Assembly: GCF_015840915.1 (NCBI RefSeq) | Contig: NZ_CP060398.1 | Location: 124,001 to 188,000 of the forward strand | Direction: 5' to 3' | Source of the DNA: Synechococcus sp. CBW1002 | Lineage (GTDB): Bacteria > Cyanobacteriota > Cyanobacteriia > PCC-6307 > Cyanobiaceae | DNA length: 64,000 bases | Part shown: positions 45,572 to 55,645 of the stretch, piece after piece | How the letters are laid out: each line of letters opens with the position of its first letter | Numbering within the stretch: position 1 is the first letter of the stretch | Position numbers and translations under genes: made by a program | Notes under the pieces: generated by a model | Told to the model about the DNA's origin: nothing | The model's database searches: none | Seen by the model: the letters and a program-made list of their open reading frames with translations, nothing else

Positions 45572-46753
45572 ATGGGGAAGGGTGAAGAGCTGGGCCAGCA
45601 GCTGAGGGCATGGAATGAGGCTGGACTGCTCGACCTCGAGCACCCCACAGCTCTGGCCAACCGCCTGATCGATGGACTGGGCGCGGAGGAATGGCTCAAA
45701 GGGCCGATCCGCGATCTGGCCTCCCAGCCGCTGCTCCGCCAGGTGCTTCGCCAACGGGATGGGGGCACCCGGCACTCGGCCCTGCAGAGCCTGGTCCATC
45801 AGCTCGAATCGACCTACGCCCCCAAGGTTCTCGTTGAGCTGCTGGCGCTCCTTCAGGCTGCCACCGGTCAATCCATCAGCCTGTCAGCGCTCGCTGAGTC
45901 CATCCCCGATCGGGCCTTGATCACTGGACCGTCCAGTGATGGACCGTGCCTTGTCAATGCTTCCGGCCCCGCTCCTGCTGCTGTGGAGATTGCAGCAGGA
46001 GCGGCAGGTCTCGCTCACCAGCTTCATCTCCTGGGTCCTGGAGTCGCCCTGGCGGCCACCGCCGCCCTGGTGTGGCGCTGGTCGGCCGGGGAGTTACAGC
46101 GCTGGGTGTTTGAACCCTGGGGCTGGAGCGGCGGAGTGGTGCTGGTGGTGCTGCTGGCACTGCTTCAGGCCCTGGCCCTCGGTCCCCTCAAGGTGGTCCG
46201 GCGTCAGTGGCCCCTGGAACAGGCCGATGCCACCGATCCCCACCAGGCGTGGCGCTGGATCTGCGCCCCCTGGATTCACCATGCCAATGGGGAGGCGCTG
46301 CTCAACCTGGTGCTGCTGCTGATCCTGCTGGGGCCATCCCCTTTGCCCCTGCCGGAGGTGGTGCTGCGCTACTGCCTCACCAGCCTGGCCACCGCAGCCC
46401 TGGCCCTGCTGCTGGCGCAACGCCGCACCAGCGAAGGGCGCTGGGATGGAGCTTCGGGGGCCGTCAGCGCTCTGATCGGCCTGGGCAGTGGCGCCAGCCT
46501 GTTGCACTGGCGATCGCTGAGCTATCCCTTCGGCCCCCTGGCGATTCCCGCCTGGGTGCTGCTGGTGGTGTACGGAACCCTGCAACTCAGCTGGCTGCTG
46601 CCCCGGCGCAGCCCCCAGGACAGCAGCCGTCCGATCGACCGCCTGCTCAGCAGCCAGTGGTGGTGGGGACTGCAGCTCGGCCTCGCCTGGGCGCTGATCA
46701 GCCGGCTTGGCCAGTGGCTGCAGGTGCTGCAGCAGACCCGCCCAGCCGGCTGA
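45572..46753 (+). CDS. Rhomboid-like membrane protein, possibly inactive
   Basis: The gene encodes 393 residues. The first 150 are soluble and helical (RLIDGLGAEEWLKGPIRDL). From about residue 152 there are six or so membrane segments. Rhomboid-like features are WRWICAPWIHHANGEALLN near 228-245 and DGASGAVSALIG, whose Ser296 sits where the rhomboid catalytic Ser would be. The expected catalytic His in the last segment is not seen; that segment reads QWWWGLQLGLAWALIS. The assignment rests on pattern only and a pseudoprotease is possible. Its last 56 bases overlap the end of the convergent penicillin-binding protein gene. Confidence 0.65.
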   Translation: MGKGEELGQQLRAWNEAGLLDLEHPTALANRLIDGLGAEEWLKGPIRDLASQPLLRQVLRQRDGGTRHSALQSLVHQLESTYAPKVLVELLALLQAATGQSISLSALAESIPDRALITGPSSDGPCLVNASGPAPAAVEIAAGAAGLAHQLHLLGPGVALAATAALVWRWSAGELQRWVFEPWGWSGGVVLVVLLALLQALALGPLKVVRRQWPLEQADATDPHQAWRWICAPWIHHANGEALLNLVLLLILLGPSPLPLPEVVLRYCLTSLATAALALLLAQRRTSEGRWDGASGAVSALIGLGSGASLLHWRSLSYPFGPLAIPAWVLLVVYGTLQLSWLLPRRSPQDSSRPIDRLLSSQWWWGLQLGLAWALISRLGQWLQVLQQTRPAG

Positions 46754-49061
46754 CGTCAGCAGCAGCAGCCATGTAGCGCCCCCACAACTCCGCCACCAGG
46801 GCCCCACTGGCGGCTTCGGCGGGTTTGTTGTCGTCGTTGCCCATCCAGATGGCGGTGAGAATTTTCAGCGACGGTGAATAGCCGACAAACAGCACATCAA
46901 CGCCGTTGTTGGTGGTGCCGGTCTTGCCGCGGGCATCGGCCACCAGAGCGGCCGCCTTGCCGGTGCCGCGCTGCACCACCGCGGCCAGCAGGGCATCCAT
47001 CTGTTGCGCATGCTCCGGCGGGATCAACTGACGGGATGTCTCCCCCACCGGCACCGTCACCCCCCGCTCCGGGCAGGTGGCAAGGCTGTAGATCGACTGG
47101 CAGATGCCCAGGTCATAGATGCGGCTGACGCCGTGCATCGGCACCGATTGGCCACCATTCGCCACCACCGCATAGGCCCGGGCCAGCTCATAGAGCAGGG
47201 TTTCACGTCCGCCCAGGATGGTGTTGAAGTCGAGGTCGAGGGGGGTGCTGATCCCCAGCCGGCGGGCCTGGTCCACCACCTGGCGCAGGCCGGCCCGCTG
47301 GGCCAGGCGCAGGGCCACCACATTCTCGGAAGCGGCGAAGCCATCGGCCACGCTGGTGGTGCCATCGGCTGAGCCTGCCCCGTGGCGGCAGCCGGCCACA
47401 TAGGACAGCGGCGCGCAGGAGATGCGGTCGTCCGGGCTGACCCCACGGGCCAGGGCCGCCAGAAAGGTGAACAGCTTGAAGGCCGAGCCGGGCTGGCGCA
47501 ACGCCTGAACCCGATCAAAGCTGGAGCGGCTGTAATCGCCGCCGCCCACGTAGGCGAGGATGTCACCACTCTCGAAATTCAGGGAAATCAGTGCTCCCTG
47601 GGTGAGGCCTGCCCGGGCCGCCGGACCCTCCAGGAAGCGCTGCAACTGTTGCTGCGCCAGGGCCTGCAGCCTGGGATCAATCGTGCTCACCACGCTGTAG
47701 TTTCCGCCACTCTCCTGTTCGGAGAGGTTGAGACCGAAGCGGGTGCCCTCCAGCTCACCTAGCACGTAATCGCTGAAGAATGGATAGCTGGTGAAGGTGG
47801 ACGCGCGGCAGGCGGAGGGATCAATGTTGAGTGGACGGCGCTCGGCATCGATCAGCCCCTGATCGGAGAGAAAGCCCTGCTCGTGCATCAGTTTCAGCAC
47901 GAGGTTGCGCCGCTCCCGACCGGCGGTGGGGTCGTCGCGGTTGCAGGGGCTGTAGCCATTGGGGCTAGGCAGCAGACCCACCAGAAACGCGGCCTGGCCC
48001 ACATCCAGATCGCGGGCCGACTGACGGAAATACAGCTGAGAAGCCTGCTCGAACCCATCGGTGCCCAGGCCGAGATGGGCCCGGTCCAGATACATCTTCA
48101 GGATCCGGTTCTTGCTGTAGCCCACCTCCAGCTGCAGCGCCACCCATAATTCCCGCAGCTTGCGGGCCAGGCTCACCTCCGTGCCCACGGAGGGGTAGTA
48201 GAGACGCGCCACCTGCTGGGTGAGGCCGCTGCCACCACCGCTGCCGAGCAGGACGGAGCGCAGGGTGCCGAACAGGTCGAGGCCACTGTTCCAGCCGAAC
48301 CGCGATTCCTCCGAGGCCACAAGGGCCTGGCGCAGATGCAGGGGATAGTCCTGCAGGGAGGGCAGGGCCGTGGCCGAGCCCTCACGGGCATCGACCTGCT
48401 CACCGCTGGCCGCAAAGATCTTCACCGGTCCGGCAATGGCGCGGATCCGGGAGCCGCCCCCCACCGAGGCCGCCGCCAGCAGCCCGCCCACCAGCAGCCC
48501 CGAGCCCAGCAAGGCCGCCAGGCCAGCCAGGTGGACCACCTGCTCGAGGGCACTGCGGGGATGGCGATACAGCAGCCGCGGCGCTTCCCCCTTCAGCGGC
48601 GATCCCAGCTGCACCACATCACCGTGGCGCAGGCGGATGGCACGGATGCGGCGGTCGCGGTGGAACAGGCCGTTGGCGGAGTTGAAATCTTCGAGGCAGA
48701 AGTCGCGATCGCCCAGCCGCTTCTGCTCGAGGATGGCGTGTACCCGGCTGAGGCTGGGATCGGCGACCGGCAGCTCGCAGGCCGGATCGCGACCGATGCG
48801 CAGCCGCTGGCCTGGCTTGAGGGAACGGGCCAGCACCAACCGATCGCCTTGCCACAGTTCGGCGCGGGCCTGTCGGGCCACCAGGTGTCGCCAGGCGGAG
48901 CCGAGGGCCCCGGGGCGCTGGGCCAATGGGCCGCGGCTGCAGGCAATCCAGAGGGCCCGCCAGCGACGGCGGCGGCTGTGTGCTGCGGCGGTGCGGCCAA
49001 CGACTTGGGCGCCGGGGTCGGACGACGGCACGGGCAGGGCAGTCCACGGCGACGGCCCCAT
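46698..49061 (-). CDS. Penicillin-binding protein 1A-type enzyme with N-terminal FHA domain
   Basis: This class A penicillin-binding protein builds and cross-links peptidoglycan. The order is unusual: a basic N-terminus, an FHA phosphothreonine-binding domain (about 70-165: GRDPACEL, SRVHAI, SANG), one membrane segment (about 175-197), a GT51 glycosyltransferase (LVASEESRFGWNSGLD, GGGSGLTQQVARLYY) and a transpeptidase (RQPGSAFKLF with active-site Ser, SEN, KTGTT). All catalytic motifs are present in 787 residues. The FHA domain faces the cytoplasm. The start is uncertain, since ATG 49061 is only 29 bases from the divergent signalling operon. That operon encodes a kinase-like protein. Confidence 0.92.
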   Translation of the reverse strand: MGPSPWTALPVPSSDPGAQVVGRTAAAHSRRRRWRALWIACSRGPLAQRPGALGSAWRHLVARQARAELWQGDRLVLARSLKPGQRLRIGRDPACELPVADPSLSRVHAILEQKRLGDRDFCLEDFNSANGLFHRDRRIRAIRLRHGDVVQLGSPLKGEAPRLLYRHPRSALEQVVHLAGLAALLGSGLLVGGLLAAASVGGGSRIRAIAGPVKIFAASGEQVDAREGSATALPSLQDYPLHLRQALVASEESRFGWNSGLDLFGTLRSVLLGSGGGSGLTQQVARLYYPSVGTEVSLARKLRELWVALQLEVGYSKNRILKMYLDRAHLGLGTDGFEQASQLYFRQSARDLDVGQAAFLVGLLPSPNGYSPCNRDDPTAGRERRNLVLKLMHEQGFLSDQGLIDAERRPLNIDPSACRASTFTSYPFFSDYVLGELEGTRFGLNLSEQESGGNYSVVSTIDPRLQALAQQQLQRFLEGPAARAGLTQGALISLNFESGDILAYVGGGDYSRSSFDRVQALRQPGSAFKLFTFLAALARGVSPDDRISCAPLSYVAGCRHGAGSADGTTSVADGFAASENVVALRLAQRAGLRQVVDQARRLGISTPLDLDFNTILGGRETLLYELARAYAVVANGGQSVPMHGVSRIYDLGICQSIYSLATCPERGVTVPVGETSRQLIPPEHAQQMDALLAAVVQRGTGKAAALVADARGKTGTTNNGVDVLFVGYSPSLKILTAIWMGNDDNKPAEAASGALVAELWGRYMAAAADVSRLGGSAAAPAATGQAG

Positions 49062-49090: not shown

Positions 49091-49363
49091 GTGGAGCGCC
49101 AGCGGGATCCCTGGGAGCCCTTCCGGCTGTGGCTGGCCCTCACGATCGGGCTCTATGCCCTGCGCGCCAGCTTTGCGGCGACCTGGCTCGGGGCGATCCC
49201 CGGCTGGGTGCTGCTGACCCTGGTGCTCCTGGCCCTGGCGCTGGCCAGCAAGGCCCTGTTGTTCCCGGGCCGCGTCGTGCCCTACCGCGAGGGGGACGGG
49301 GGCTGGTGGGCAGACCTGCGCGAAGACTGGCAGCTCTGGTGGCAGCGCCGCCGCGGCCCATGA
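49091..49363 (+). CDS. Small membrane protein, first gene of the kinase-phosphatase operon
   Basis: The gene encodes 90 residues from a GTG start. Two hydrophobic segments (FRLWLALTIGLYALRASFAATWL and PGWVLLTLVLLALALASKALLF) are followed by a soluble Trp-rich tail (GWWADLREDWQLWWQRR). I recognise no family. Its stop overlaps the FHA gene start by four bases (ATGA), so the two are coupled. It is divergent from the FHA-penicillin-binding protein gene and may be a membrane subunit of the same system. Confidence 0.7.
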   Translation: MERQRDPWEPFRLWLALTIGLYALRASFAATWLGAIPGWVLLTLVLLALALASKALLFPGRVVPYREGDGGWWADLREDWQLWWQRRRGP

Positions 49364-50187
49364 CCAACCCAGCCCCCGCACCACCCCACGCTCGGCTGGT
49401 GCAGCAGAACGATCCGGGCAGCAGCGTGCCACTCGATTCCGGCCGGCCCCTGAGCATCGGCCGTGACCCGGCCAATCAGCTCTGCCTGCCGAACGCGGCT
49501 GGGCTGTCGCGTCGGCATGCGGAGATCCGCAGCTCCAGCGACAACACGGGCTGGGTGATCGCGGATCTGGGCAGCGCCAACGGCACCTACGTGGGCCGCC
49601 AGCGGATCACAGCCCCCCACCCCCTGCAGGACGGCGATCGGATCCAGCTGGGCCGCAACGGACCGGTGTTCTTGTTTCAGTGGGAGTCCGCCACTGCTCA
49701 GCAGAGCAGCGCTTCGAGCGCCACGGGTTCGCAGGCCACTGCTGCGACGACCACTGCTTCGAAGACCACTGCTTCGAAATCCACTTCCGGAAAGGCCCGT
49801 GCAGCAAGGCCGGCGCCGCAGCCCGCCGTGGCAGCGCAAGCTGCGGGATCCGCCCCTGCCGAGATCGACATCGGTGGGGAACGGATCAGCCTCGATCGGA
49901 TCCGCTCGGCCGAGCTGCGCAGCCAGGCCCTCCACCACCACATCTTCAGCTGGTGGGTGCTTGCCTGTCTTGGCGGCCTGCTGCTGCTGCCCTTTCCCCT
50001 GGTGTTCTGGCCCCTGCAGGTGGCAGCCCTGGCCGGCGCGGTGCTGCTGGGCTCGCGCAAGCAGCACGTTCTGGTGGTGGTGCTGCGCGACGGGCTGGCC
50101 TACCGGCGCAGCTTCTCCAACCGGATCACCGCCCTGTCGCACCGCAATGGCATCCGCCGGGCCCTGGGCCAGCCGGTGGAGCCATGA
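49360..50187 (+). CDS. FHA-domain membrane protein
   Basis: The 275 residues start with an FHA domain (about 12-105) that should bind phosphothreonine: SIGRDPANQL, SRRHAEI and DLGSANGTYVG carry the conserved Arg, Ser, His and Asn-Gly. A Thr/Ser/Ala/Lys-rich linker (about 110-165, with repeated TTASKTTASK) offers many possible phosphorylation sites. Two membrane segments (about 195-235) and a basic tail follow. It lies between the small membrane protein and the kinase-like gene, overlapping both by four bases. Confidence 0.9.
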   Translation: MTNPAPAPPHARLVQQNDPGSSVPLDSGRPLSIGRDPANQLCLPNAAGLSRRHAEIRSSSDNTGWVIADLGSANGTYVGRQRITAPHPLQDGDRIQLGRNGPVFLFQWESATAQQSSASSATGSQATAATTTASKTTASKSTSGKARAARPAPQPAVAAQAAGSAPAEIDIGGERISLDRIRSAELRSQALHHHIFSWWVLACLGGLLLLPFPLVFWPLQVAALAGAVLLGSRKQHVLVVVLRDGLAYRRSFSNRITALSHRNGIRRALGQPVEP

Positions 50188-51515
50188 CCTGGATCCTGCC
50201 GTTGGGCGAGAGCCTGCAGATGGAGGAACTCAGCAGCCCGATGCGAATCCGGCGCGCCCTGGGGGGCGGCACCCAGGGCCAGGTGTTCGCGGTGGAGGTG
50301 GACGGCGAAACTCTGGCTCTGAAGTGGTATCTGCCGGCCTGCCTGGCCCGTGATCCCCAGTTGGCCCGCCGCCTCAGCGACAGCATTCGCGCCACGGCCC
50401 CCAATCAGGATTTCCTCTGGCCGATCGCCCTGCTGCACCCGACCGCCGCCAGCCGTGGGCAGATTCGCTGCCGCGACGCCGGTTTCGGGTATCTGATGGA
50501 CCTGAGACCGGCGGACTACGTGGGCGCCCATGAGCACGTCGCGGGCCGCATCGAGATCAGCCTGCGCTCTGTGCTGCGGGCCTGCTTCTTCCTGGCTGAC
50601 GCCTTCCATGCCCTGCACCTGCGCGGCCTCTGTTACAAGGACATCTCCCTGGGCAACCTGTTCCTCCAACCCGGCAGCGGCCGCATCCTGATCTGCGACA
50701 ACGACAACGTCGATGTGGACGGGCGTGACCCTGGCAGCGTGCTGGGTACGCCCGGGTTCATGGCTCCCGAGGTGCTGCTGGGCCAGGCCTGCCCCGGCGC
50801 CGACAGCGATCTGTTCTCGCTGGCGGTGCTGATCTTCAGGCTGCTCACCCGCCACGATCCCCTGCGGGGACAACGGGAGCTGGCGATTCGCTGCCTCGAT
50901 GAACCCGCCCGCCGCCGCCTCTACGGCGAAGACCCCCTGTTCATCTTTGATCCGGCCGATCCGTCCAACCGACCCGATCCGATCGAGCACACCGCCGCCC
51001 TGATCACCTGGCCGATCTACCCGGAGCGGCTCAAGGACCTGTTCGAGCAGACCTTCTGCCGCGGCCTGCGCCAGCCCAGCCAGCGGGCCCTGACGGGCCA
51101 GTGGCGCCGGGCCCTGTCGATCACCCTGGACCAGCGGCAACTGTGCCGGGCCTGCGGCCAGGAGGTCTTCCCCGACGATCAGAGTGCCAGAACCTGCTGG
51201 AGCTGCGGCTCGCCGCTGCAGCCGGTCCTGCGGCTGCAGCTGGCCCATGGCGAGGTGATCGCCGCACCGGACAACGAGCTGCATCCCCATCACTTCGATG
51301 CCCTCGTACCCGAGAGCCTGCTCACCCCCCTGGCACGGGTGGAGGCCCACCCCGTCGATCCCTCAATCGTGGGGCTGCGCAACCTCTCGCCGGAACTCTG
51401 GAGCGTGGAGCTGATCGACGGCGCCGTGGTGCCGTTGCAACCCCAAAAAACCTGTAATCTCGCGCCCGTGCGACGGCTCACCACGCCGGCCGGGGCGATC
51501 ACGGTGCTGCGCTGA
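50184..51515 (+). CDS. Ser/Thr protein kinase-like protein with C-terminal zinc ribbon
   Basis: The 443 residues have a kinase fold: glycine loop GGGTQGQVF (27-35), Lys47 in LALKWY, catalytic loop YKDISLGNLF with Asp153 and Asn158, metal motif ICDNDNV with Asp172 in place of DFG, and GTPGFMAPE (188-196). The usual HRD is YKD. A four-Cys zinc ribbon follows (CRAC at 321, CWSC at 338). The C-terminal 100 residues are of unknown type. Catalytic residues are kept, so activity is likely. Kinases with zinc ribbons occur with vWA and PP2C genes in tellurite-resistance-type TerY triads, and both follow here. Confidence 0.88.
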   Translation: MTWILPLGESLQMEELSSPMRIRRALGGGTQGQVFAVEVDGETLALKWYLPACLARDPQLARRLSDSIRATAPNQDFLWPIALLHPTAASRGQIRCRDAGFGYLMDLRPADYVGAHEHVAGRIEISLRSVLRACFFLADAFHALHLRGLCYKDISLGNLFLQPGSGRILICDNDNVDVDGRDPGSVLGTPGFMAPEVLLGQACPGADSDLFSLAVLIFRLLTRHDPLRGQRELAIRCLDEPARRRLYGEDPLFIFDPADPSNRPDPIEHTAALITWPIYPERLKDLFEQTFCRGLRQPSQRALTGQWRRALSITLDQRQLCRACGQEVFPDDQSARTCWSCGSPLQPVLRLQLAHGEVIAAPDNELHPHHFDALVPESLLTPLARVEAHPVDPSIVGLRNLSPELWSVELIDGAVVPLQPQKTCNLAPVRRLTTPAGAITVLR

Positions 51516-51535
51516 CCCCTGGCCCGTAGTGCCCC

Positions 51536-52273
51536 ATGCCCTTCCCCAACGTTCGCCTCGCCAACCGACCGCTCCACTTCCTCTACCTGTGCGACTGCTC
51601 CGGTTCGATGGCAGCCCAGGGCAAGATGCAGGCGCTCAACCAGGCGATCCGCCAGTCGCTGCCGGGCATGGCCGAGGTAGCCCGGCAGAACCCGGAAGCC
51701 CGGCTGTTGGTGCGGGCGGTGCGCTTCGCCGACCAGGCCCGCTGGCACATCGCCGAGCCCACGCCAGTGGAGCAGCTCAGCTGGATCGACCTTGAGGCCG
51801 GCGGCGTGACCGCCATGGGCGAGGCCCTGGAACTGGTGGCGGCCGCCCTGCAGACGCCACCGATGGAGGAACGGGCTCTGCCGCCGGTGCTGGTGCTGAT
51901 TTCCGACGGCCAACCGACCGATGATTTCGATCGCGGCCTGCGCACGTTGATCCGCCAGCCCTGGGCCCAGAAGGCGGTGCGGCTGGCGATTGCCCTCGGC
52001 CACGACGCCGATCTGGAGGTGCTGCAGCAGTTCATCGGCCAGGATCCCGGCGGCAGCGGCCGATCAGCGCGACGCCCGCTGCAGGCCGGCAACGCCACCT
52101 CCCTGGCCCAGTACATCCAGTGGGCTTCCACGGCCGTGGTGAACGCCGCCTCCATGCCCGCCAGCCGCATGGTGCCGTCGGCAGAGGCCGCAGCCCCGGG
52201 CCCCATCCCCCTGCCGGATCTGCCTCCGACCGTGCTCGATCCCACCGACGATGTCGGTCCCCTGGTGTGGTGA
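51536..52273 (+). CDS. TerY-like von Willebrand factor A domain protein
   Basis: The 245 residues form a vWA domain with a complete metal-ion-dependent adhesion site: DCSGS (Asp20, Ser22, Ser24), Thr91 in GGVTAMGEAL, and Asp123 in LISDGQPTDD. The pattern resembles TerY/COG4245. The last 60 residues are a Pro/Ala-rich tail. It has no signal or membrane segment. It starts 20 bases after the kinase-like gene and ends in a GTGA overlap with the phosphatase. In known TerY triads the vWA protein is thought to be a scaffold or substrate. Confidence 0.9.
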   Translation: MPFPNVRLANRPLHFLYLCDCSGSMAAQGKMQALNQAIRQSLPGMAEVARQNPEARLLVRAVRFADQARWHIAEPTPVEQLSWIDLEAGGVTAMGEALELVAAALQTPPMEERALPPVLVLISDGQPTDDFDRGLRTLIRQPWAQKAVRLAIALGHDADLEVLQQFIGQDPGGSGRSARRPLQAGNATSLAQYIQWASTAVVNAASMPASRMVPSAEAAAPGPIPLPDLPPTVLDPTDDVGPLVW

Positions 52274-53859
52274 CCCCCTGGCAGCCGGCCAGGATCTGCA
52301 GCCGCCCCGGAGCAGCCCACCAACGCCGCGGCCAGGTCTGTCAGGACGGGAGCGCGGCCATCGAACTGCGTAGCCTCGATGGCCTGCCCGTGAAGGTGAT
52401 GGCCGTGGCCGATGGCCATGGTGGCGCCCGGTACCACCGCAGCGACATCGGCAGCCGCCTCGCCTGCACAGCCGCCCTGACGGCCGTGGCCGCCACGCTG
52501 GAGACCAGCCGTCTGGCCGACAGTGCCGCTGGCCAGCCGATGGAGCAGTGGCGACGGTGGCTGCAACAGGCGTTGCCGCTGGCCATTCTCTCCACCTGGC
52601 GAGAAGCGGTGGAGGCCGACCGGGCCAGGCGGCCGGAGCCAGACAACCCAGCGGGACAGGAGGGCGTCCCCGCACTGGAAAGCGCAGCGGCGCAAGACTG
52701 GCTGGCCTATGGCACCACCCTGGGGCTGGTGGTGCTGACACCGCACTGGTGGGGCCACACCGGACTGGGCGACTGGGACCTGGTGCGGGTGGATGCCCAG
52801 GGCGTCGCCGTGCTGCTGGACGAGGAAGCGGACGACCCAGCCTCACCGGGGGAAGCCACCGGCAGCCTCTGCCTGCCCGACGCCGCCTCGCTGTTTGCGT
52901 CGCGCTCCGGGCTGCACCGGCTCGACAGCCCCCAGGCGCGCTTCGCCCTGCTGCTCAGCACCGATGGACTGCGCAAGTCCTGCGCCACGGATCCTGACTT
53001 CCTGGCACTTGCTGCGTTCCTGGTGAGCGCAGTCCAAGCCGGATCGACGACTCCGGCCCATGCGTTGGATCAAGCGGCCGCACCGGCAGACGCTCCAGAG
53101 GCAAGCCAGGAGTCCACTGAGCTTCCCAGCCTGCTGGATCGCATCAGCCGCGAGGGCAGCGGCGACGATGTGAGCGTGGCCATGACCTGGTTCGAGCCTG
53201 AGGGGTCGCTCGCGGCTGAACCGGTCAATCCTGAGCGAACAAAGCCTGTGCAACGGAGGGCGGAGCAAGCAACCGCTGAGCCAACACCCGCGGCAACCGC
53301 AACGGCGAAACCAACAACGGTTCAGCCAGAAGCTTCTCAGCCAGCCAACGAAACCGCCGATGCTCCTGATGTTGGTTCCTCTGCCGTCGCCGGCAAGGGG
53401 CGACCATCCACTCCACGCCTCCTGCTGGGTCTCAGTCTGGGTCTGGCAGGAGCGCTGGCTCTGTTGAGCTCCTTGGGGCTGCTGGGGCAGCGGTCCCCAC
53501 CGAGGCCTGCCACGCCCCTGAAAATGGAGCCTTCTTCCCCTGAGTCCCTGCCACCTGAGCCAGTCCGTCAGTTGGTCCAGACACTCTGCCAGGGTTCACC
53601 GGCATCGATCCGAGGCACCCTGCGCAACCGCCGCGCCCAGTTCGAGGGGCTGGGGCGGGGCACAATCGCTCCAGATCTGCTCAACGCATCCAGCACCAGC
53701 GATCCCCTCGGCGCCCTGATCGCGGCCAGCTTCGATCCGGCGCAGCGCACGATGGTGCGCGGATCAGCCCTTCAGGCTCTGGGCGCCTGTGCAGCGTTGC
53801 AGTCCGCCTTGCAGGAGCAATGGCAGCAGACCATGCCCAGCCCATCCCCATCCCGCTGA
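52270..53859 (+). CDS. PP2C-type Ser/Thr phosphatase with membrane segment
   Basis: The 529 residues start at a GTG that overlaps the vWA stop by four bases. PP2C motifs are Asp26 in QVCQDG, VADGHGG (metal-binding Asp48), YGTTLGLVV, GDWD, LLSTDGL and GDDVSVAM, so the metal site is complete. The phosphatase spans about residues 10-350. It includes charged and Pro-rich insertions. A low-complexity Ala/Thr/Pro linker, a membrane segment (about 384-406, LLLGLSLGLAGALALLSSLGLLG) and a C-terminal domain of about 100 residues follow. It would remove phosphates placed by the kinase. Confidence 0.9.
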   Translation: MTPWQPARICSRPGAAHQRRGQVCQDGSAAIELRSLDGLPVKVMAVADGHGGARYHRSDIGSRLACTAALTAVAATLETSRLADSAAGQPMEQWRRWLQQALPLAILSTWREAVEADRARRPEPDNPAGQEGVPALESAAAQDWLAYGTTLGLVVLTPHWWGHTGLGDWDLVRVDAQGVAVLLDEEADDPASPGEATGSLCLPDAASLFASRSGLHRLDSPQARFALLLSTDGLRKSCATDPDFLALAAFLVSAVQAGSTTPAHALDQAAAPADAPEASQESTELPSLLDRISREGSGDDVSVAMTWFEPEGSLAAEPVNPERTKPVQRRAEQATAEPTPAATATAKPTTVQPEASQPANETADAPDVGSSAVAGKGRPSTPRLLLGLSLGLAGALALLSSLGLLGQRSPPRPATPLKMEPSSPESLPPEPVRQLVQTLCQGSPASIRGTLRNRRAQFEGLGRGTIAPDLLNASSTSDPLGALIAASFDPAQRTMVRGSALQALGACAALQSALQEQWQQTMPSPSPSR

Positions 53860-53869
53860 TCCGCCTGCC

Positions 53870-54928
53870 ATGAACGACTACCAGCTCGGGGCCGCCCTGC
53901 GGGAGCGGGTGCTGCAGCTTCGTTCCCAGAACCTGCCGATCGAGGGCCGTCGTCTGCAGGGGCTGGTGGGTGACCTCTGCGGCAGTGAGCAGACCGCCCT
54001 GCTGCCGGCACTGCGCCATCTGGTGTTGTCCGCCGCCTTCCACAGCGGTGCGAGCCAGGCCAGGCCCCTGGCGGATCCGCGCCTGGCGGCCCGGCTGATG
54101 GCGGAACTGCGCGAGGTGTTCGCCGTCACGATCTGTGCCCGCATGGAGGGGGTGGTACTGGGCCTGCTGGCCCTGCCAGGGCCGATGACCCCTTCAGGCT
54201 CAGAGGCGGCACCCCATCCAGGCGTGCCCCGGCAAACCGCTGCTGTGCCAGTGGCGGTAGCAGCGGTGCCCGTAGAGGTATCAGCCGTTCAACCGCCCGT
54301 GGTGCCACAGATGCCGCCTGCGGCACCAGCCGCCGAGGATGTCTATGCGGTGGAGGCACCGAGGGCATCAGGCGGCAGCCGGGGCCTCGTGGCCTTCCTG
54401 GCCTTTCTCACCGGCAGCCTCAGCGTGGCACTGGTGGCCGTGGTGCTGTGGATGCACCAGTCGGCGCAGCAGAGCGCCCTGCAACCGAGCGCGCCGGTGG
54501 TGCGCCAACCGGTGGCACCCCCTACCCCCGCACCTGTAAGCCAGCCTGAGCCCCCCCAGGTGCCAGAGCTGCCCGAACCTGAACCCACTCCTGAGGCCGC
54601 CACGGCGGAGCAGGCCATGGAGAGCATCCGCAGCCTCTACGAGAGCCTCAGCCGCAAAGATTTCGAGCAGGCCCGTCAGTGGTTTGCCGGCGCGGCAGCC
54701 GACCAGTTCGACGCCGCCTTCTTCGAGCAGTTCCAACAGGTGACCGTGTCGGATCTGCAGACCACCGGCAGCAATGGCAGCAGCCTCACCCTCGATGGGG
54801 TGGTGACCTTCGTCTACCCGGATGGCACCAGCCAGAGCGAGACACGCAGCTTCACGGTGGACACCGCCACCTCGCCGGCCCTGATCACGAACAGTGCCTT
54901 CGTTCGGGTGCTGCAGGCGCGCCGGTGA
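53870..54928 (+). CDS. Membrane-anchored protein with a C-terminal NTF2-like domain
   Basis: The 352 residues begin with a helical cytosolic domain (about 1-105, MNDYQLGAALRERVLQLRSQ). A Pro/Val/Ala linker and one membrane segment (172-195) follow. After them comes a Pro-rich stretch and a domain of about 100 residues (EQAMESIRSLYESLSRKDFEQARQWF) that resembles an NTF2/SnoaL-like cone fold; that match is by eye. Such domains occur on the far side of the membrane in some kinases and may sense a ligand. It lies 10 bases after the phosphatase and is the last gene of the operon. Confidence 0.75.
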   Translation: MNDYQLGAALRERVLQLRSQNLPIEGRRLQGLVGDLCGSEQTALLPALRHLVLSAAFHSGASQARPLADPRLAARLMAELREVFAVTICARMEGVVLGLLALPGPMTPSGSEAAPHPGVPRQTAAVPVAVAAVPVEVSAVQPPVVPQMPPAAPAAEDVYAVEAPRASGGSRGLVAFLAFLTGSLSVALVAVVLWMHQSAQQSALQPSAPVVRQPVAPPTPAPVSQPEPPQVPELPEPEPTPEAATAEQAMESIRSLYESLSRKDFEQARQWFAGAAADQFDAAFFEQFQQVTVSDLQTTGSNGSSLTLDGVVTFVYPDGTSQSETRSFTVDTATSPALITNSAFVRVLQARR

Positions 54929-55008: not shown

Positions 55009-55052
55009 AAAAAATCCCGTGATGGAACCCTGGCAGGGTTCCATCACGGGAT
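55009..55052 (-). terminator. Terminator with a perfect 18-bp stem
   Basis: ATCCCGTGATGGAACCCT at 55014-55031 and its exact complement at 55035-55052 surround a 3-base loop. On the minus strand six T residues follow the stem (55014-55009, the first also the end of the stem), so it ends transcription of the PSRP-3 gene. Read in the other direction it faces the end of the kinase operon. Confidence 0.9.

Positions 55053-55093: not shown

Positions 55094-55645
<552 letters not shown>

Follow-up and report, generated by a model that had tools for sequence, protein, structure and literature searches.

The 64,000-nucleotide stretch of Synechococcus sp. CBW1002 analyzed here (contig NZ_CP060398.1, positions 124,001 to 188,000; hereafter the window) carries a six-gene operon (genes A to F) that encodes, among other proteins, an FHA protein, a Ser/Thr kinase, a TerY-like vWA protein and a PP2C phosphatase, and that is divergent to a gene for a class A penicillin-binding protein (PBP) that carries an FHA domain at its N-terminus. 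We consider it somewhat probable (about 0.6) that the operon and this FHA-PBP constitute a single membrane-proximal switch controlling peptidoglycan synthesis. The FHA-PBP accompanies the operon in related genomes, and thus the switch probably controls cell-wall growth. The features concerned are as follows (positions are those of the window).

46698..49061, minus strand: class A (bifunctional) PBP with N-terminal FHA domain and one transmembrane (TM) segment, divergent from the operon
48603..48800, minus strand: FHA domain of the PBP; GR / SxxH / NG signature invariant in 40/40 rows
49091..49363, plus strand: gene A, 90-amino-acid membrane protein with a conserved RDPWxPFR motif close to the N-terminus
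49360..50187, plus strand: gene B, FHA protein with a hydrophobic stretch (residues 194-232), probably two TM segments, and a Ser/Thr-rich linker that is not conserved
49453..49653, plus strand: FHA domain of B (Pfam FHA, 4e-20); signature complete in the window
50184..51515, plus strand: gene C, Ser/Thr kinase with a zinc ribbon at its C-terminal side
51144..51206, plus strand: zinc-ribbon cysteines C321, C324, C338 and C341 of C, kept in 41/41 rows
51536..52273, plus strand: gene D, TerY-like vWA protein; metal ion-dependent adhesion site (MIDAS) intact (DxSxS, T92, D124)
52208..52270, plus strand: tail of D, predicted disordered, with PLPDLPPT (invariant T232) and a C-terminal W
52270..53859, plus strand: gene E, PP2C phosphatase with a single TM segment (residues 381-406) and a C-terminal region of variable length
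53870..54928, plus strand: gene F, N-terminal helical module, TM segment, linker and C-terminal NTF2-like domain (residues 246-349, predicted periplasmic)

Linkage of the operon to the FHA-PBP

Coordinates re-derived from the sequence confirm the six genes in the order given by the original prediction, with Pfam supporting the FHA, kinase, vWA and PP2C assignments, and the 4-base overlaps (A/B, B/C and D/E) and short gaps (20 bases between C and D, 10 bases between E and F) support its claim of one coordinated operon. That prediction had named a lack of conserved gene order in close relatives as its refuter; among the 40 loci fetched (39 from the window's own family and one class-level), genes A to E occur in identical order in 38 (E only partial in L096), and this conservation exceeds chance. 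Gene F is less fixed, with a tblastn match in 22 of the 40. The window's genome is a single contig of 3.85 Mb, and the closest named relative by kinase C is Synechococcus sp. CS-1328 (95% identity, in a list that may omit the window's own genome); the locus of Synechococcus sp. WH 5701, a culturable relative, was matched as well. The confinement of the unit to six genes did not stand, because the divergent FHA-PBP accompanies the operon in the family.

The PBP possesses both a transglycosylase and a transpeptidase domain (Pfam Transgly, 4e-40; Transpeptidase, 8e-26), consistent with class A, and its FHA domain (8e-16) precedes the TM segment. It is divergent to A to E in 38/40 fetched loci, the exceptions being L073 (C-D-E alone) and L077 (a distant kinase-vWA pair). 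In six loci (L070, L071, L074, L089, L090 and L091; that of L090 cut by a contig end) the PBP and A to E are present together, with F and six other tested window neighbors undetected. Across 400 family genomes, kinase C was identified in 72 and the orthologous PBP, among the matches listed, in 71, where orthology denotes at least 58% identity over at least part of the protein (listed paralogues, 41-46%) and weaker fragments would count as paralogue or absent. On this basis, 70 genomes encode both C and the PBP, two C only, one the PBP only, and 327 neither; a further 98 family genomes have PBP matches at paralogue level only, again among the matches listed. Of the 70 genomes holding both, 69 have C and the PBP in divergent orientation within 1.1-2.7 kb; in the remaining one (G386) they are on different contigs of a 570-contig assembly. 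In the PBP-only genome (G252), gene B reaches to within 49 bases of the end of the fetched contig, and C is therefore probably just unassembled. Linkage of the PBP with A to E is thus strong within this one family.

The proximity of the two transcription units also accords with an explanation that we regard as quite unlikely, namely that the PBP and the operon merely share a promoter region for co-expression, without phospho-docking: the predicted starts of the PBP and A lie 29 bases apart in the window and, in most other loci, lie near one another or overlap (start positions are uncertain), and FHA-PBPs are widespread without the operon. However, phospho-signaling parts occur on both sides, a promoter scan found no sigma-70-like promoter, and members of the PBP clade lack the kinase in only one of 71 genomes, for which a contig end accounts.

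Catalytic core and candidate FHA readers

The Pfam matches of the core are Pkinase in C (3e-13), VWA in D (5e-7) and PP2C_2 in E (6e-23), and hydropathy analysis revealed no hydrophobic stretches in C or D. Residue conservation was assessed in alignments of as many as 41 orthologue rows, that of the window among them: residues K47, D153, N158, D172 and D174 of kinase C and the MIDAS of D (DxSxS/T/D) are unchanged in 41/41 rows, and Asp residues D26, D48, D168, D232, D299 and D300 of the PP2C in 40/40. The zinc ribbon of C falls under the Pfam cut-off (DZR, E 0.011), yet its four cysteines are invariant. Given that the checked residues of kinase, zinc ribbon, MIDAS and PP2C are all invariant, C, D and E look functional, as judged from their sequences.

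In the open-access passages of its description, the TerY-P triad consists of a TerY-like vWA protein, a PP2C and a Ser/Thr kinase with a C-terminal zinc ribbon (Anantharaman et al. 2012, as summarized in PMC11090510). All three proteins, the position of the zinc ribbon and the MIDAS recur here; thus, by these features, C-D-E is a TerY-P-type triad, in agreement with the TerY-like core originally proposed. Unlike that triad, however, it is accompanied by FHA-TM, TM and NTF2-like proteins and by a divergent FHA-PBP, there is no TerD in the genome, and no nuclease was seen; the added parts and the dedicated FHA-PBP mark it as a variant distinct from the triad as described. The prediction had reported no terZ/terD-type genes near the operon, and this extends to the whole genome (0 TerD matches), on which ground we reject membership of a tellurite (ter) system. 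Also rejected is B as an FHA protein of the TagH type of type VI secretion systems (TIGR03354, 43.7 bits against the NCBIfam cut-off of 120.25).

It is very improbable that the operon is instead a TerY-P-type module serving anti-phage defense or conflict. PADLOC matched D weakly to TerY (E 0.0018) and C to defense-system kinase models (best PD-T4-6, 6e-15), although any Ser/Thr kinase might give such matches. TerY-P triads are reported to accompany CoCoNuT systems, and TerY-P-like modules to act as stand-alone defense (PMC11090510, open-access passages), and an integrase-like gene lies close to the triad (L111:15663-16856, by eye) on a contig matching Prochlorococcus sp. MIT 0701 (G029; L162). 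Nevertheless, a Pfam scan of the operon identified no nuclease, and the pairing with the PBP persists in 69 genomes.

The FHA domains of the PBP and of B differ in conservation. The phosphothreonine-binding signature residues (GR, SxxH, NG; as given in the open-access passages of PMC1262709) are invariant in the PBP but variable among B orthologues, in which R is kept in 30, S in 29 and N in 15 of 37 rows (L063, L064 and L080 were left out, B being mis-called there). This argues that the PBP, rather than B, is the conserved candidate FHA reader. A genome-wide search gave three FHA matches at E<=0.001, namely B, the operon-linked PBP and a paralogous FHA-PBP at 3157286-3159442, such that the operon-linked protein is the second FHA-PBP of this genome. 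The layout of FHA, TM segment and transglycosylase occurs in 206/242 class genomes, and 25/25 rows of cyanobacterial FHA-PBPs (24 distinct genes, four of them operon-linked) keep the signature; because FHA-PBPs are so widespread in the class, the operon-linked copy is to be regarded as a distinct FHA-PBP. Class genomes without an FHA-PBP match include 20 among those listed, all of the window's own family.

The same data bear on a further explanation, which we judge rather unlikely, in which the operon is a TerY-P switch of a generic type that senses stress or metals and acts on many substrates, with the FHA-PBP as one of several outputs and B as the main reader. The core fits the published triad (PMC11090510, open-access passages), the residues of its MIDAS and zinc ribbon do not vary within the family, and related triads occur in loci of Methylococcales, Chloroflexota, Myxococcota and Alphaproteobacteria; a small set of hidden Markov models (HMMs) detected FHA in 3/40 and PBP in 0/40 such loci (none longer than 13.3 kb, and some truncated at the end of a contig). 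Such a switch would be harder to reconcile with the lack of a TerD match, with an FHA signature that is partly replaced in B orthologues and not in the PBP, and with the retention of the PBP where other tested neighbors go undetected.

The putative switch and the tail of D

In the switch that we favor, kinase C would act at the inner membrane and phosphorylate a partner there, most likely on Thr, the best candidate site being T232 in the disordered tail of D, and PP2C E, which is predicted to be membrane-tethered in this strain, would take the mark off. The FHA domain of the PBP would read the mark, whereby the bifunctional synthase may be recruited, positioned or released. A, B and F would serve as a membrane scaffold, with F placing its NTF2-like domain in the periplasm beside the PBP, where it might act as a sensor or as a partner of the PBP. 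The original prediction of a membrane-bound stress or cell-surface signaling module is upheld with respect to membrane anchoring (hydrophobic stretches at A 28-63, B 194-232, E 381-406 and F 171-196), but not with respect to generic stress or surface signaling, as the linked FHA-PBP points to peptidoglycan synthesis.

The tail of D suggests itself as ligand by its conservation: PLPxLPPT is present in 41/41 family rows, TxxD in 38/41 and the C-terminal W in 41/41. Outside the folded domains (regions set by hand), the only Thr residues at 95% conservation are T232 of D and T304 of C, the latter probably still within the kinase fold; Ser residues reaching this level are S170, S187 and S204 of the PBP and S177, S206 and S210 of D. 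The AlphaFold2 model of D is weak, with a mean predicted local distance difference test (pLDDT) score of 64 and values under 50 for residues 207-245, and shows only that the tail is not predicted to pack. The Ser/Thr-rich linkers of B, E and F were rejected as a conserved FHA ligand, there being no Ser/Thr at 95% conservation in them.

More distant vWA open reading frames (n = 44, from 37 loci) end in W in 41 cases (mostly V/I-W, in several phyla), including one (L219:4411-4974) whose tail is probably in the wrong frame. With W common and TxxD rare in these proteins, the terminal W appears to be an old element and the Thr motif a lineage feature, and the terminal W of TerY-like vWA proteins is probably a docking signal. 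We thus reject the notion that T232 is a signal common to all TerY proteins; the feature that is widespread is the terminal W. It is absent from the more distant vWA protein of L077 and from the second vWA protein of the window's own genome, which belongs to a kinase-vWA pair (L110:5866-9448; C1 about 3,545,865-3,549,447) whose kinase has a zinc-binding-like motif and a long C-terminal region and presumably resembles E. coli YegI.

That T232 of D is the docking mark is a tentative proposal, which we rate well below even odds. We are equally hesitant about the fuller scheme, in which C would phosphorylate T232 in the tail (PLPxLPPTxxDP...W), the FHA domain of the PBP would read it and the PP2C would reset it, with the W tail as an ancient docking signal of this TerY clade and with swappable effectors: the PBP in Cyanobium/Synechococcus-like lineages, an FHA-ABC exporter in one Prochlorococcus-named lineage and perhaps, in one distant cyanobacterium, an L,D-transpeptidase.

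Several observations weigh against these proposals and against the switch itself. The Asp at +3 is absent from three family rows, TxxD occurs within the last 35 residues in only 7/44 distant vWA open reading frames, T232 is unconserved in distant triads, and 20% of shuffled versions of the window's D tail contain TxxD, so that docking of the tail to the kinase or the PP2C may need no phosphorylation. Co-occurrence counts and family loci share ancestry, such that a Fisher test of the counts overstates their independence, and linkage is not mechanism. Among the 206 class genomes with an FHA-PBP, only 10 are on the list of genomes with a kinase-C match, so that an FHA-PBP does not need kinase C, and we reject an exclusive dependence of the PBP on this kinase. 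In a small, hand-picked sample of 25 operon-less family genomes, all 20 whose sole FHA-PBP is the paralogous one encode a different kinase over the Pfam cut-off, as opposed to 0/5 of those without it (4/5 having weak matches), and the paralogous FHA-PBP may thus have its own kinase. A kinase profile matched 18 of 388 class genomes, nine of them outside the family, and six of these nine (G043, G427, G505, G514, G528 and G587) also have an FHA-PBP, far off or on another contig; since it never adjoins the kinase there, the PBP linkage is a feature of the one family. Even within the family the PBP is not an obligate partner, as G029 and Prochlorococcus sp. AG-412-I05 (G142; L167) retain the C-D-E triad, D tail included, but yielded no PBP match at E<=1e-100.

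The only FHA protein of G029 is an FHA-FHA-ABC transporter (L111:3347-5704), about 5 kb from the kinase and separated from it by several genes, one of them F-like by eye; G142 encodes its FHA protein on a different contig from the triad. The window's genome also encodes a 715-amino-acid kinase over the Pfam cut-off, with a hydrophobic stretch by eye (L109:5834-7981), which is possibly the writer for the other FHA-PBP.

Known systems, membrane parts and distant loci

PknF is a membrane kinase with no known vWA or zinc ribbon, PknB is a PASTA-type kinase, and FhaA is a further case in the Ser/Thr kinase control of the cell wall; to our knowledge, no FHA domain is fused to a PBP in the Gram-positive kinase systems. 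As far as the open-access passages of the sources cited here describe them, PknF and Rv1747 of Mycobacterium pair a kinase with an FHA-headed membrane effector, an FHA-bearing ABC transporter (PMC2877116, PMC6213207), with the same domain set as the FHA-FHA-ABC protein near the G029 triad; here, by contrast, the linked effector is a PBP and not a transporter. PrkC-YvcK-PBP1 and PknB-PBPA of Gram-positives likewise place cell-wall enzymes, and hence peptidoglycan synthesis, under Ser/Thr kinase control (PMC6213207).

For the proposed docking, the precedent is the Sulfolobus pair ArnA/ArnB with kinases ArnC/ArnD: ArnB, a vWA protein, is phosphorylated by the kinases at sites in its C-terminus, and it is this C-terminus that the FHA protein ArnA binds (PMC6509490). 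The analogy to an FHA protein binding a phosphorylated vWA C-terminus is qualified by the same source, in which mutation of ArnB phosphothreonine pairs left motility and the ArnA interaction unaffected. Moreover, the Arn system is archaeal and controls archaellum expression, the ArnB C-terminus is a helix bundle and not a short tail, and the reader ArnA has a zinc finger and is no PBP (PMC6509490).

An open-access literature search found no description of a TerY-P triad paired with an FHA-PBP. FHA domains are borne by class A PBPs in most sampled cyanobacteria, and the open-access passages found do not state their ligand; in this locus one FHA-PBP copy stands beside a kinase, a phosphatase, a vWA adaptor and a candidate phosphosite of its own, which makes the ligand question directly testable. 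If the switch operates as proposed, the TerY-P triad would gain a housekeeping role in cell-wall growth, beyond tellurite resistance, restriction and defense (the roles given in the open-access passages), and the locus would suggest a kind of writer for the FHA domain on these class A PBPs.

Pfam assigned no significant family to A or F. The AlphaFold2 model of F comprises a helical N-terminus and a C-terminal alpha+beta domain mostly above pLDDT 90, with the TM segment and a low-confidence linker between them and a whole-chain predicted template modeling (pTM) score of 0.37; a weaker hydrophobic stretch at residues 82-103 lies within one of the helices predicted for the N-terminal module. Foldseek matched the C-terminal domain to NTF2-like folds, including part of E. 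faecium PBP5 (50 matches listed, one below E 0.001 and most between 0.001 and 0.02); with such E values the NTF2-like fold, which the original prediction had assigned to F, is likely on the basis of the model, and a link to PBPs is only suggestive. Row L076 of the F alignment is poorly aligned at the N-terminus. By eye, the N-terminal region of F resembles that of anchored proteins at L132:3668-4717, L133:3337-4938 and L134:10250-11998, the outer domains of which differ.

Among loci outside the family, the distant cyanobacterium G514 (L132) encodes, in one plus-strand run, a vWA protein, a PP2C, an anchored MORN protein, an L,D-transpeptidase, two FHA proteins and a kinase. Loci of family f15 (L134, L136 and L137) hold together a kinase, an anchored protein, a kinase-vWA fusion and a PP2C, and no cell-wall enzyme was seen in the part of their genes that was scanned; in L136 the anchored protein has a phosphonate-binding-like domain, and two nearby FHA proteins scored in Pfam. 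At the downstream end of the operon, a terminator-like hairpin of 18 bp (55014..55052, minus strand) lies between F and the convergent next gene, in a region with two terminator-like sites against 1.8 expected by chance; this next gene (55094-55636, minus strand) presumably encodes a protein resembling the ribosomal protein PSRP-3/Ycf65.

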